NCBI RefSeq assembly: GCF_004362975.1
Contig: NZ_SNXO01000004.1
Coordinates: 1-64,000 of the forward strand
From: Aminicella lysinilytica
GTDB taxonomy: Bacteria; Bacillota; Clostridia; Peptostreptococcales; Anaerovoracaceae
DNA: 64,000 nt
Direction: 5' to 3'
Below are positions 48,314 to 60,118 of the stretch, piece by piece. The position numbers and the translations under genes are program-made. Each line of letters begins with the position of its first letter. The stretch's first letter is position 1. The notes under the pieces are model-generated. The model was given only the letters and a program-made list of their open reading frames with translations, searched no databases and was not told the DNA's origin.

Positions 48314-48337
48314 AAAGGCACGCCGCGGCGTGCCTTT
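48314..48337 (-). terminator. Terminator after the DUF4430 gene
   Basis: AAAGGCACGCC / GGCGTGCCTTT with the A/T tract oriented to terminate the minus-strand secreted-protein operon. Confidence 0.88.
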
Positions 48338-48348
48338 ATAAGATTCAA

Positions 48349-49437
48349 CTATTTAACAACTACTTTCGAGAAAGCGCTGATATGTGAACCATTTACTGCT
48401 ATTACCTTGTAGTAGTAATGCTGGCCCTTCTTCAGACCTTTGTTTGTCAATGAAAGTTTAGTCGTTGTCTTGACGCACTTGTAAGTGCCGGTCTTCTTAG
48501 TAGCTCTGTAAACTTTGTACTTGGAAGCCCCTGTGATCTTCTTCCATGAAATCCTGACGCTGGACTTAGTCTTAGCGGAAGCCTTGGCAGACGGTGTGCT
48601 CAGACCAACTTTGACTTTAGCCATAGGAGCCATGATGCTTGCTGTAGTCTTTCCTGCCCAGCCTGTATAAGTTACAGTGCCTTTAGCTGAAATGTAATAT
48701 GTACCAGGTTTGCTGAATTTGACGCTTGCGATTCCCTTGGTATTCGTCTTATAGCTTGTTGCCTTCAAAGAGCCTGTAGTAGCATTTACAGTCTGAATAA
48801 CACTCTTGTTTGGCGTAACCGCTGTCTGAACATAAGTCATAGGATCTGAACCTGCTGCAGTTATCTTAACGCTGAATGCCTTGCCTGCTTTAGCAGAATA
48901 AGTTTCCTTATTGAAGTAACTCATAAGAGCCGAATAGCCCGAATCCGAATCAGCATATGAGCAGACTTTAATGTTCTGTCCGTTCTCTACTGTTGTTGAT
49001 GACACGCCCGTAGCTGGCATCTTATTATTGATAGTATAGATTCCGACCACCTTATGACCGAACTGCTTAGTCATGGATGTACCATAAGTGCTGTCGATGA
49101 TACCCATAAAAACTTCCGGATCTGTCTTGAATGCTTCTTCTCCATATTTGGCAATATGTGCTGCTACCAGCACATCCAGCATTGAAACCTGCCCTGAAAC
49201 TTCGTTCTTGGCAATTGCAGGGAAATATGTCTCTGCAAGATTGCTTGTTGCTGTAATAGTCTTGTTGATCATATCGAATCCTGTCGGAGTCGAAGCTGTG
49301 AAAGTCACCTTGACTGTAGCCGTAGTAGTTGCGTCTGTCGTTGTAGTCGTGTCATCAGCGAAAGCCATAGTCGGCATGAATGCCATAACCAGGGTCAGCG
49401 CCATAGTCACGATCAATACTTTAGAAAACTTTTTCAT
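48349..49437 (-). CDS. Secreted DUF4430 (transcobalamin-like) protein with FN3-like tail
   Basis: A 362-residue exported protein. Signal peptide 1-27 (ends AFA), a Thr-rich linker, then a region (about 45-250) with the DUF4430 layout: VSMLDVLVAAHIAKYGEEAF, FGHKVVGIYTINNKMPATG, then a ligand-loop-like segment. DUF4430 corresponds to the C-terminal domain of transcobalamin/intrinsic factor. Residues 275-362 form a fibronectin-III-like module (SVRISWKKITGASKYKVYRA, GQHYYYKVIAVNG). It is 24 bp downstream of the beta-propeller gene and both lie behind a cobalamin riboswitch, so a role in extracellular corrinoid binding is the natural inference. Confidence 0.7.
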   Translation of the reverse strand: MKKFSKVLIVTMALTLVMAFMPTMAFADDTTTTTDATTTATVKVTFTASTPTGFDMINKTITATSNLAETYFPAIAKNEVSGQVSMLDVLVAAHIAKYGEEAFKTDPEVFMGIIDSTYGTSMTKQFGHKVVGIYTINNKMPATGVSSTTVENGQNIKVCSYADSDSGYSALMSYFNKETYSAKAGKAFSVKITAAGSDPMTYVQTAVTPNKSVIQTVNATTGSLKATSYKTNTKGIASVKFSKPGTYYISAKGTVTYTGWAGKTTASIMAPMAKVKVGLSTPSAKASAKTKSSVRISWKKITGASKYKVYRATKKTGTYKCVKTTTKLSLTNKGLKKGQHYYYKVIAVNGSHISAFSKVVVK

Positions 49438-49461
49438 TGATTGATATCCTCCTCATAATAA

Positions 49462-51237
49462 TTATTTAACTTTTTTATAGCTTATATTTGACCAGCCTCC
49501 GAAGACTTTCTTGCCGCTTACCGTTCTGTAAGCTTTGACTTTATAATAGTAAGTCCTGCCCTTCTTCAGCTTGGTGTTAACGAATCTGGTGCCGGTCATT
49601 GTCTTGACCTTTTTATATGACCCGCTCTTGGATGTGGCCCTGTAAACGCAGTAGCCGCCCGCTCCCGTTACCTTGCCCCATCTGACCGTTATCTTCCCGG
49701 ATCCTGCCGTCGTTGATACTTTGGCGGACGCCGGTACCGGCCGGACTTTGGAAGCTGTAGCCGCCGCGGTCGTGCTGCCGTCCAGCAGCGTGGCCGTGAC
49801 TTTATAGTAGTAGGCCTTGTTTGTAGTCAGGCCTTTTTCGTTGTAAAATGTCGTATTGTATCCGAAGTCGTAATTGACCTTGCTCACGTCTATGGTACTG
49901 ACTTTAACAAAAGTCTTGCCGTCGGTGCTTCTGTAGACTGTGTAGGCAGTGGCGTTGGCTTTATTATTCCAAAGGACTTTCACTGATTGATATCCCGTGG
50001 ATGTTGCCTTGGCTGACACTGCCGACGAGTCCGAGACGCCGTTGACAGCCATTATATAGCCAGAGTCGTTTTTGTAATAGAGTGTGCCGTCGTCGCCAGC
50101 CGTAACAGGCGATATGCAGTACTGTCTGTGCTGAGGAACAAAAGTCATGCCCTCAGTCAGTTTGCTGCCATTTGCATCGGCCTGTACGCAGTAGATGCCG
50201 CCTACGCCGTTATTGCCCGTGCTGTAGATGCTGACCTTGCCGGCCGTACCGGTGGATACGAGGATGTCGCCTTTGATCTCACCGCCGTTGGTCGTCGTCG
50301 TCCATTTCTGATTCAGATCAGTATCGAAAGCGGAAAGTTTGCCCTTATTGCCTCCAACGTATATCCTGTCACCGCTGATGACCGGGCTGCATGATGACGA
50401 GCCGAAGTCGTAGTCAGTTACTTTCTCAGGCGTTCCGTCACTGGCCAGAGACACCTTATATAATTTCCCCTCTGTGGCAGAACTGCTCATAACTGTAGCG
50501 CTGGTCGTCGTGAAATATGCGTAATTACCACTTACAGCAGGCACACATCTGACATTATATTTCAATGTCAGAGATTTGATGCTGCTGGTGTTCTTGGCAT
50601 CCGCCGCAACAGAATACAATGTCTTATTATCGCTGCCGAAGATTATTCTGTCGCCGAGCTTAGCTGCGCCGGCCCAGTAGTAACCCTCAGAGTCAAATTT
50701 CTTCCATATGGTTTTCCCTGTGGATCCATCGATGCAGAAAAATGTTCCGCCGTCATTGTCATCTCCCCAGGTTCCGCTGTAAACTCTGCCGTCTATGTAT
50801 TCGACCGGGCACACGTTCTGACCGTCGAAGGTCTCCGTACTCTTCCATACAATAGACAGATCAGAAGCCTTCAGTTTAACTATCTGGCATTTGACAGTGG
50901 ACACATAGATATAGCCATTGCCGTCGCTTATGACAGGCATCATGGCATAGCCGACTGTTCCGCCTATGGATTTGCTGACTGCCTCCTGCTTGCCCGTATC
51001 CTTGTTCATTTTGTAAACCTTATCACCGGCACCCACATATATGGATCCGCCAATAAGCGCAGGTGGCGTAGGCGCGCTTGACCAGCCTGTTCCAAGGCTC
51101 TTCTGCCATTTGATGCCCGTTGTACCGATAGCATCAGGAGTAGCCGCCGCCGTAGTCCCCGCAAAGACTCCCGCAGGCACCAGCATGGTCACAGCAACTA
51201 TGGCCGCAAGCATTACTATGCGCAATTTGTTTCTCAT
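49462..51237 (-). CDS. Secreted PQQ-type beta-propeller protein with FN3 repeats
   Basis: A 591-residue exported protein. Signal peptide 1-27 (MRNKLRIVMLAAIVAVTMLV...), then about seven PQQ/YncE-like blades (about 60-405) with repeating motifs such as GGSIYVGAGDKVYKMNKDTG, GYIYVSTVKCQIVKL, GRVYSGTWGDDND and DRIIFGSDNKTLYSV. Residues 415-591 hold two FN3-like modules that share the SYKKVKTMTGTRFVNTKLKK-type ending with the neighbour. I start at ATG 51237, with GGGAGG before it. Directly under the cobalamin riboswitch. It may be a surface scaffold or ligand binder; the PQQ-like fold need not bind PQQ. Confidence 0.75.
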   Translation of the reverse strand: MRNKLRIVMLAAIVAVTMLVPAGVFAGTTAAATPDAIGTTGIKWQKSLGTGWSSAPTPPALIGGSIYVGAGDKVYKMNKDTGKQEAVSKSIGGTVGYAMMPVISDGNGYIYVSTVKCQIVKLKASDLSIVWKSTETFDGQNVCPVEYIDGRVYSGTWGDDNDGGTFFCIDGSTGKTIWKKFDSEGYYWAGAAKLGDRIIFGSDNKTLYSVAADAKNTSSIKSLTLKYNVRCVPAVSGNYAYFTTTSATVMSSSATEGKLYKVSLASDGTPEKVTDYDFGSSSCSPVISGDRIYVGGNKGKLSAFDTDLNQKWTTTTNGGEIKGDILVSTGTAGKVSIYSTGNNGVGGIYCVQADANGSKLTEGMTFVPQHRQYCISPVTAGDDGTLYYKNDSGYIMAVNGVSDSSAVSAKATSTGYQSVKVLWNNKANATAYTVYRSTDGKTFVKVSTIDVSKVNYDFGYNTTFYNEKGLTTNKAYYYKVTATLLDGSTTAAATASKVRPVPASAKVSTTAGSGKITVRWGKVTGAGGYCVYRATSKSGSYKKVKTMTGTRFVNTKLKKGRTYYYKVKAYRTVSGKKVFGGWSNISYKKVK

Positions 51238-51262
51238 ACTTTCCTCCCAAGATAAAACAATG

Positions 51263-51284
51263 GACTGTGACAAATGTCACAGCC
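51263..51284 (-). terminator. Riboswitch expression-platform hairpin
   Basis: GGACTGTGACA / TGTCACAGCCC (inner CTGTGACA/TGTCACAG at 51265-51282), followed on the minus strand by ATTGTTTTATC and then the RBS. It could terminate transcription or shield the RBS in the cobalamin-bound state. Confidence 0.65.
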
Positions 51285-51329
51285 CGTATTTACTGTCTTA
51301 TAAATCCTGTACCGAATTACCCGTTCGCA

Positions 51330-51512
51330 AAAGGACACTTTCATGCAGGTCTCCTGGCTCATGGATCATTGCTTCATCCCTCCTTCCCAACGAATGTCAG
51401 TGGATGGCCCCAAGGCCCGGAATGAAACTACCAACTACAGTGGCGGTACCGCGCAGGATTCTGACCTGCTTCCCTCTCAGCCCCGCATCCTGAGATACGG
51501 AGAACACGAAAT
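51330..51512 (-). promoter_or_regulatory. Cobalamin riboswitch
   Basis: Minus strand carries the conserved core in order: GAGGGAAGCAGGTCAGAATC then CTGCGCGGTACCGCCACTGT (GCCACTG at 51444-51438), an internal stem around GGGCCTTGGGGCC, and the B12 box AGCCAGGAGACCTGC (51359-51345). It should repress the secreted proteins at 49462-51237 and 48349-49437 when adenosyl- or other cobalamin is plentiful. Confidence 0.93.
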
Positions 51513-51565
51513 CAATATTTAACTCAGTTAATCATAATCTATTTCACAGTTAAAGTCAATGGTCA

Positions 51566-58140: not shown

Positions 58141-58360
58141 GTTCTCTCCTAACTTTTCAATATACTGATACTATAATAAATAGTTGCAATTTGCAAGACT
58201 TGTATGTGAATTAACTGTGAAGAAGGTTGACTTATCAGCGGATAATTGTTATCATAGTGGTGAATTCTTAAGAAATCTTAAGAATCTTATGACAATTATA
58301 ACAGCACAGAACGTTAAAATATGTAACAATAGTAGCATTGACATTCGAGGGGGTAATATT

Positions 58361-60118
58361 TTGAAATTCAAGAAGATCTTAGTACCGTTGCTGGTCAGCT
58401 TAGCTGTCATCGGAGGTACTATAGGCATAGTCTATGGGGCGACGAGTACTGTAGACGGAACCAAATACACGCATCCAAGCTGGTACACTTCCAGCAGTTA
58501 CAAGTTATTTCACGGAATAGATGTATCTTTTTTCCAGCACAACAACAATTGGAACAAAATCAAGCGTGATGGGGTTGATTTTGCCTTTATAAGATGTGGC
58601 TTCACATCGTTAGGATCCACAACTATAAATGCTGACAGTTACTGTGCAAAAAATATTGTAAATGCTCAGGCAGCCGGCGTCAATGTTGGCCTGTATTATT
58701 ATTCGCAAGCCAAGACCACAAAGCAAGCAATCAGAGAAGCTAAATATGCTGTTTCTATAGCCAATAAATACGGCGGTATAACCATGCCTATAGTCATGGA
58801 TTATGAGAAGAAGATGGGAACCAAGTCAACTATGACCAAATGTGCTAAGGCTTTCTGTAATTATGTGAAAAAGGCCGGATACACGCCGATGCTATATTCA
58901 TATTATTCACTGTCTAATTCGAAATTTGATTTCAACAGCCTGTCGTCATATAAATTCTGGCTGGCCCACTATAATAGCAGTTCAGATTTCTCGCACCCCT
59001 ACGAGTACTGGCAATACACAAGTTCAGGTTCTGTCAGCGGCGCAGGTAGCAAACGTGTGGACAGGGATTTCTGGTATTACAAACTGAATTCCGGCGTGAC
59101 CAAAGCTGGCACTACTTCAATAGGAGATTGCTCAGTATCCCTGAGTTATTCTAAGAAACAAGCTACAGGCAAAAAGCTAGAGCCAACCGTTACAGTAAAG
59201 AATGGTGACACTATTCTTACCAAAGGTACAGACTATGTAACTATGTATTTCCATAATGTCAAGGGTGGCACAGCCTATGTTATAGTCAGGGGAATTGGTA
59301 ATTATTCCAACGAAGTGTTAGAGTCATTCAAGATTACCACTCTTGCCTTCAACAGCACTACCGCTACAGCCTCTAATGTTAGCAACTTGTCTTACACTGG
59401 AAAAGCGTTAACTCCTACTACAACTGTTAAATACAATGGCACTACTTTAAAGAATGGTACTAACTATTCCCTGAGCTATTCGAATAACAAGAATGTAGGT
59501 ACAGCAACTATTAAAATTACCGGCAAACTCCCTTATGTTGGCTCTATTACCAAGACATTTAGAATAGTCAAGTCCAAGCCGACTATCAAGACACTGCGTT
59601 CAACTTATAGAATCGGCAGAGACCATTACGGCATCAAGATAGGCGCAACTACAAACGGTGGTAAACTCACCTATTATTCATCTGATGAGGATCTTGTAAC
59701 AGTAAACAGCAGCGGAATTCTCACTACCAATAATAAGTCCGGCACGGCCACTATCACCATCAAAGGCGCGGCTTCATCCAACAGGACAGCCGGCAGCAAG
59801 CAGGTCACTGTCAAGGTATATGCCAGACCGCCAGTTGTAGAAGTTACTAAAATCAAAAAACCTGCCAAGAACTATTTCAGGATCTACTGGAACAAGACAA
59901 GCAGAACATCAGGATATCTGATAAAGTATTCCAACAGCAGTACTTTCAAGACATCCAAGTACTACAACGTGACCAATAACAAGACTACAGCCAAAACATT
60001 GAAGGATGGCCTGAAGGGACATTATGTCTATGTTAAGATCAAGGCTTACAGAACTCTTGACGGTGCCAATTACTATTGCAGCAGTTACAGCAAGACACTG
60101 AAAATCAAAGTGAGATAA
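58361..60118 (+). CDS. Secreted GH25 lysozyme with Ig-like repeats
   Basis: A 585-residue exported muramidase. After a signal peptide (1-28, LKFKKILVPLLVSLAVIGG...) comes a GH25 domain (about 45-235): HGIDVSFFQHNNNW, FAFIRCGFTS, GLYYYSQA, and the catalytic Asp/Glu in MPIVMDYEKKMG. Two about 80-residue beta repeats (SLSYSKKQATGKKLEPTVTV and SNLSYTGKALTPTTTVKYNG), a BIG2-like Ig domain (about 430-500, SSDEDLVTVNSSGILTTN) and an FN3-like end follow. The start is TTG at 58361, placed after GAGGGGGTAA; a longer ATG frame at 58184 has no RBS and no signal-peptide logic. It remodels or degrades peptidoglycan outside the cell. Confidence 0.85.
   Translation: MKFKKILVPLLVSLAVIGGTIGIVYGATSTVDGTKYTHPSWYTSSSYKLFHGIDVSFFQHNNNWNKIKRDGVDFAFIRCGFTSLGSTTINADSYCAKNIVNAQAAGVNVGLYYYSQAKTTKQAIREAKYAVSIANKYGGITMPIVMDYEKKMGTKSTMTKCAKAFCNYVKKAGYTPMLYSYYSLSNSKFDFNSLSSYKFWLAHYNSSSDFSHPYEYWQYTSSGSVSGAGSKRVDRDFWYYKLNSGVTKAGTTSIGDCSVSLSYSKKQATGKKLEPTVTVKNGDTILTKGTDYVTMYFHNVKGGTAYVIVRGIGNYSNEVLESFKITTLAFNSTTATASNVSNLSYTGKALTPTTTVKYNGTTLKNGTNYSLSYSNNKNVGTATIKITGKLPYVGSITKTFRIVKSKPTIKTLRSTYRIGRDHYGIKIGATTNGGKLTYYSSDEDLVTVNSSGILTTNNKSGTATITIKGAASSNRTAGSKQVTVKVYARPPVVEVTKIKKPAKNYFRIYWNKTSRTSGYLIKYSNSSTFKTSKYYNVTNNKTTAKTLKDGLKGHYVYVKIKAYRTLDGANYYCSSYSKTLKIKVR

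Follow-up and report, generated by a model that had tools for sequence, protein, structure and literature searches.

The window analysed here is a stretch of 64,000 nucleotides of the Aminicella lysinilytica genome (assembly GCF_004362975.1, contig NZ_SNXO01000004.1, positions 1 to 64,000), on the minus strand of which a promoter-like site, a cobalamin riboswitch, a leader hairpin, a beta-propeller gene, a gene for a 362-aa protein beginning after a gap of 24 bp, and a terminator follow one another in that order (Table 1). The upstream neighbour is fumC, located 40 bases away on the same strand. No transporter gene is present in the riboswitch unit (51559-48314), and the absence of a known transporter that had been claimed from the sequence alone is borne out by its gene content, two secreted proteins and then the terminator. 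Both proteins carry a signal-peptide-like stretch at the N-terminus. The order fumC, riboswitch, propeller gene and DUF4430-like gene is kept in two genomes of the same genus (G008 and G002), and comparison of the orthologues of these two genomes gave a dN/dS of about 0.2 for each of the two genes; the propeller and 362-aa ORFs are therefore real genes under purifying selection.

Table 1. Features of the riboswitch-controlled unit, in order of transcription
Feature	Position	Strand	Basis or remark
Promoter-like site, TTGACT-17-TATGAT	51531..51559	(-)	10/12 consensus; just 5' of aptamer
Cobalamin riboswitch aptamer	51327..51524	(-)	Rfam RF00174, 100.3 bits, full length
Leader terminator-like hairpin (putative expression platform)	51262..51285	(-)	Fold and conservation
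Secreted beta-propeller and FN3 protein, 591 aa from ATG	49462..51237	(-)	PQQ_2; propeller at about residues 37-402
Secreted 362-aa protein with transcobalamin-beta/DUF4430-like, Ig-like and FN3 domains	48349..49437	(-)	Pfam and fold
Transcobalamin-beta-like domain, residues 39-167	48937..49323	(-)	4kki Z 11.0, 5no0 Z 10.4
Transcription-unit terminator	48314..48337	(-)	End of unit, after 362-aa gene

The sequence-only reading had placed a canonical riboswitch at 51330-51512, and this was confirmed by RF00174, which covers the whole aptamer with model positions 1-189 aligned end to end and scores 100.3 bits (gathering threshold 31.5; E 6.8e-24). In the orthologue leaders of G008 and G002 the -35 element of the promoter-like site is kept, as is the leader hairpin despite changes in its letters, and the leader of the window folds far more strongly than shuffled sequences (z -3.9). 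Cobalamin riboswitches as a class are usually OFF with ligand (PMC11477304). With a terminator-like hairpin placed between the aptamer and the propeller start codon, the anatomy of the leader indicates that the switch in the window, too, is most likely OFF with ligand.

The first gene of the unit encodes a protein with a PQQ_2 match (E 5.5e-14) and a weak FN3 match in Pfam, and in its model FN3-like domains are found C-terminal to the propeller. The best fold matches of the propeller among those listed are YxaL, the designed protein Cake8 and BamB (Z 34-36). The FN3 type of the two window proteins recurs in many secreted proteins across the genome. A secreted protein encoded elsewhere in the window (58184-60118, plus strand), lysozyme-like by eye, carries a C-terminal FN3-like module of the same type. 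The description of the pair as a beta-propeller/FN3 and a DUF4430/FN3 protein, both secreted, holds for the propeller, the FN3 domains and the signal peptides, but the DUF4430 match of the 362-aa protein falls below the Pfam cut-off.

In the latter protein Pfam recognizes FN3 (E 8.6e-6), and the match to DUF4430 (PF14478) reaches 19.4 bits against a cut-off of 23.8 (E 0.0015). The first domain is divergent and lacks the SGW motif of canonical DUF4430 members. A search of the protein against solved structures gave only FN3 matches and no transcobalamin match by sequence, and no transcobalamin match was obtained with profiles A2 and A7 either, so that a fold comparison was needed. Seven homologous sequences went into the AF2 model, whose block means of pLDDT lie at 81-94 for residues 41-160. 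The top 50 Foldseek matches of the protein are Ig/FN3 entries, driven by the C-terminal domains, and it was with VIA-align that corrinoid carriers surfaced: residues 39-167 superpose onto haptocorrin (4kki, Z 11.0, 2.7 A over 98 residues) and residues 34-169 onto the isolated human transcobalamin beta domain (5no0, Z 10.4, 2.8 A over 100 of 105 residues), at a sequence identity of only 15-16%. These two corrinoid carriers are the only near-top matches covering the first domain, and the only near-top proteins outside the Ig/FN3 class. The predicted model of the 362-aa protein has the beta-domain fold of the transcobalamin/intrinsic factor family, in agreement with the link between DUF4430 and transcobalamin that had been proposed for this locus; DUF4430 is described as the C-terminal domain of transcobalamins in PMC4350170. 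By its modelled structure only, the first domain is classed as DUF4430-like. Because it lacks the SGW motif, we give about even chances that this domain itself contacts a corrinoid.

The genome has three cobalamin riboswitches in total. The second one, on contig 19, precedes a gene whose 233-aa product combines a membrane segment at the N-terminus with a clear DUF4430 domain (E 9.5e-18). This unit directly follows an isomerase-like gene and the genes for the ECF subunits T, fused A-A and S. The family profile of this S-component matches ECF-CbrT (6FNP) with an E-value of 3.2e-22, compared with 4e-5 for the next match, folate and riboflavin S-components being weaker still, and the ECF ATPase belongs to TIGR04520. 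It is this transporter, and not the window unit, that has the composition of ECF-CbrT, namely a CbrT-homologous S-component with EcfT and fused EcfAA adjacent. The transporter that had been supposed to be encoded elsewhere is accordingly found beside the second riboswitch/DUF4430 unit, and in relatives such genes share one operon. Behind the riboswitch-controlled DUF4430 gene of contig 19 lies a transposase gene, IS30-like by eye (L034:9080-10315). The third riboswitch (contig 28; L035:395-9660, L210) leads into genes for a secreted CbiK-like protein, two more secreted proteins, an ABC importer and a corrin-synthesis run, which reads cbiD, L, F, G, H, J, E/T, A, B, P and a cobD-like gene, most of the single names being assigned by eye. 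The CbiK-like cobalt chelatase combines a signal peptide, CbiK and FN3, and an extracellular CbiK heading a corrin operon is unusual. A 'NEAT' label given by eye to the 264- and 926-aa proteins of this operon had no Pfam support and was dropped, and the idea of B12 auxotrophy was abandoned once the corrin-synthesis operon had been found. Judging from its gene content, the organism is probably capable of corrinoid synthesis and has in addition at least two import routes. Corrinoid scavenging, as claimed in the sequence-only reading, is supported in the sense of capture, but not as the sole source; since the genome contains a corrin-synthesis operon, the organism is not simply a scavenger.

An association of DUF4430 with cobalamin riboswitches and ECF genes is seen well beyond this genome. 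Among 61 relatives, at least 22 of 114 DUF4430 matches lie within 3 kb downstream of a cobalamin riboswitch and at least 40 within 12 kb, against 0.25 and 1.0 expected, respectively; these figures are rough in that matches within one locus are not independent, at least 20 genomes contributing within 6 kb. In a sample of 20 other genomes of the phylum, chosen by DUF4430 score and contig size with riboswitches disregarded and inspected over stretches of 14.5 kb, a same-strand upstream cobalamin riboswitch was found at 18 of the 20 DUF4430 loci and ECF genes at 19; one of the two loci without an upstream riboswitch (L229) is cut by the contig end. A check of shorter flanks of 1.5 kb recovered a riboswitch at only 3 of 29 loci, as first genes of 3-4 kb, which are frequent, reach beyond such a flank. 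A typical locus consists of a riboswitch followed by genes for a DUF4430 protein of 900-1600 aa, often with S-layer domains according to Pfam, a DUF4430 protein of 250-400 aa, EcfT, EcfAA and EcfS. Not every DUF4430 is linked to B12, however, since the third DUF4430 protein of the genome (L172:5629-6048, contig 29), which has 139 aa, lacks a nearby riboswitch; similar short proteins occur also in G007, G008 and G002. As a control, the DUF4430 of Lactococcus lactis has no B12 link.

The propeller takes part in the same association. Propeller genes follow the ECF genes in L236 (riboswitch, DUF4430, DUF4430, EcfT, EcfAA, EcfS, propeller) and L244 (riboswitch, DUF4430, EcfT, EcfAA/S, propeller, DUF4430), in L143 DUF4430 and propeller genes come after an ECF operon preceded by a riboswitch, and in G006 (L141, L142) relatives of the 362-aa protein share one stretch with propeller, DUF4430 and ECF genes. 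Fifteen further propeller neighbourhoods contain DUF4430 in ten cases and a cobalamin riboswitch in seven, with neither of them in L232, L240, L241 and L243; as five of the fifteen lack DUF4430, the propeller family is not confined to a B12 role. Genes for MoxR-type AAA ATPases were also observed inside propeller/DUF4430 clusters (L231:3524-4489, by Pfam; L141:8251-9186, by eye).

Many riboswitch-controlled DUF4430 proteins, or their neighbours, contain an alpha/alpha toroid of the squalene-cyclase/prenyltransferase type, often together with S-layer domains. Lipoprotein-like toroids of about 320 aa occur in the DUF4430/ECF loci L180:3817-4791, L231:7465-8406 and L142:12914-13852, those of L180 and L231 giving weak, sub-threshold matches to the Pfam family 'Eukaryotic cobalamin-binding protein' (E 9e-4 and 6e-5), and an iterated toroid profile collected 66 related proteins in the fetched loci. 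In sequence profiles the toroids match squalene cyclases and not transcobalamin itself, so we say that they resemble the other half of transcobalamin with no claim of common descent. Neither window protein contains a toroid by Pfam, so a toroid in the same protein, as in the transcobalamin family, is missing here, and a search of the window's genome detected none. The latter result hints that in the window's lineage the propeller may stand in for this half. A strict exclusion between toroids and propellers is unsupported, several genomes having both.

Cobalamin riboswitches, ECF-CbrT, BtuG/BtuH and DUF4430 as the C-terminal domain of transcobalamins were each known separately before. In the open-access papers that we searched, none was found that ties DUF4430 of bacteria to B12 riboswitches or to transport by ECF systems. 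The unit shares with human transcobalamin, haptocorrin and intrinsic factor the beta-domain fold (residues 34-169), the extracellular location and a DUF4430-type domain; in contrast to that family, the window protein has no alpha toroid and is paired with a propeller, and its binding is a prediction. A Bacillota cell is not expected to possess the outer-membrane transporter BtuB. In Bacteroides, surface capture of B12 is carried out by the beta-propeller BtuG and a second binder, BtuH, encoded in riboswitch-controlled loci (PMC6143338, PMC8941943). A propeller and a second predicted binder under a riboswitch are alike in principle, so that the difference from BtuG that had been claimed for this locus is narrower than proposed and lies in lipid anchor and envelope type: BtuG2, with seven blades, is a lipoprotein of the outer membrane and cooperates with BtuB, whereas the window propeller is a Gram-positive secreted protein whose signal peptide, MRNKLRIVMLAAIVAVTMLVPAGVFAGTT, has no lipobox cysteine, which resembles BamB, YxaL and Cake8, and whose partners are DUF4430 and ECF genes. 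BtuG2 is absent among the fold matches listed for the propeller, the best of which are eight-bladed, an absence that is compatible with kinship. Import by BtuCDF-type ABC systems is likewise uptake under cobalamin-riboswitch control, and such a unit is present on contig 28 of the same genome, but the window unit lacks ABC genes and uses other folds. With ECF-CbrT, the cobalamin transporter of Lactobacillus delbrueckii represented by 6FNP (PMC5997447), the contig-19 genes have in common an S-component of the CbrT family and adjacent T and ATPase genes; the purified Lactobacillus complex transports cobalamin on its own (PMC5997447), whereas here extracellular DUF4430, toroid and propeller proteins are tied to the transporter genetically.

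Taken as a whole, the window unit probably captures corrinoids outside the cell for delivery to an ECF transporter, a prediction supported by the genetic link of DUF4430, ECF genes and riboswitches across the phylum and by the CbrT-family S-component in the genome. As one of the two proteins has a fold like one half of transcobalamin and their relatives stand in B12-importer operons in related bacteria, the pair would probably form the outer, vitamin-catching end of the route. At low cellular adenosylcobalamin, the riboswitch would let transcription proceed past the leader terminator, as its anatomy implies, and the propeller/FN3 and transcobalamin-beta-like proteins would be exported by virtue of their signal peptides. 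Fold and context suggest that both may then bind corrinoids. They might perhaps stay at or near the cell surface, to which the FN3 domains and the S-layer domains of relatives would be suited; one relative has an LPXTG-like tail, read by eye. From the adjacency of the genes, the membrane-anchored DUF4430 protein of the second riboswitch may hand the corrinoid to the neighbouring CbrT-type ECF transporter. The divergence of the domain, the lack of a detectable toroid partner in the genome, the corrin-synthesis operon and the existence of DUF4430 proteins without a B12 link weigh against this reading. More tentatively, and with considerable doubt, one could imagine a transcobalamin-like relay in Bacillota, in which toroid and DUF4430, either fused and S-layer-anchored or split, would clamp corrinoids and load CbrT-type ECF transporters, the propeller replacing the toroid in the window's lineage. 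To our knowledge, the ECF transporter class is usually described as having no need of a separate binding protein.

It could also be that the route serves a corrinoid precursor or another tetrapyrrole, such as cobinamide or an early cobalt-containing intermediate, caught for the organism's own corrin pathway. Under the third riboswitch, genes for an extracellular CbiK-like protein and an ABC importer come before the corrin operon, which would fit this, but the S-component is closest to CbrT, an importer of cobalamin and cobinamide, and the corrinoids bound by folds of the transcobalamin type are complete or nearly so, so that we consider it unlikely. Slightly less probable still is that the two products are general surface or adhesion proteins under B12 control, with no corrinoid binding by the DUF4430-like fold. 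Surface proteins often contain FN3, Ig and propeller domains, and the shared FN3 type, the four propeller neighbourhoods with neither DUF4430 nor riboswitch, and the divergence of the domain would all be compatible with such a role; the repeated presence of the propeller in one operon with DUF4430 and a CbrT-type ECF transporter, the fold match to corrinoid carriers and the conservation of riboswitch control in orthologues argue against it. That fumC or another neighbour is the main target of the riboswitch, with the two genes as passengers, is very improbable despite the closeness of fumC, which lies upstream of an aptamer having its own promoter, while the two genes follow the leader, are closed off by a terminator and are kept as a pair behind the switch in relatives.

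Corrinoid capture by the window unit, if correct, would assign a likely role to a domain still named as being of unknown function (DUF4430), and provides a concrete and widespread set of candidate genes, open to testing, for B12 acquisition and competition in Gram-positive gut bacteria. It suggests that bacteria may employ carriers designed like those of animals, a point relevant to how they compete with host intrinsic factor.
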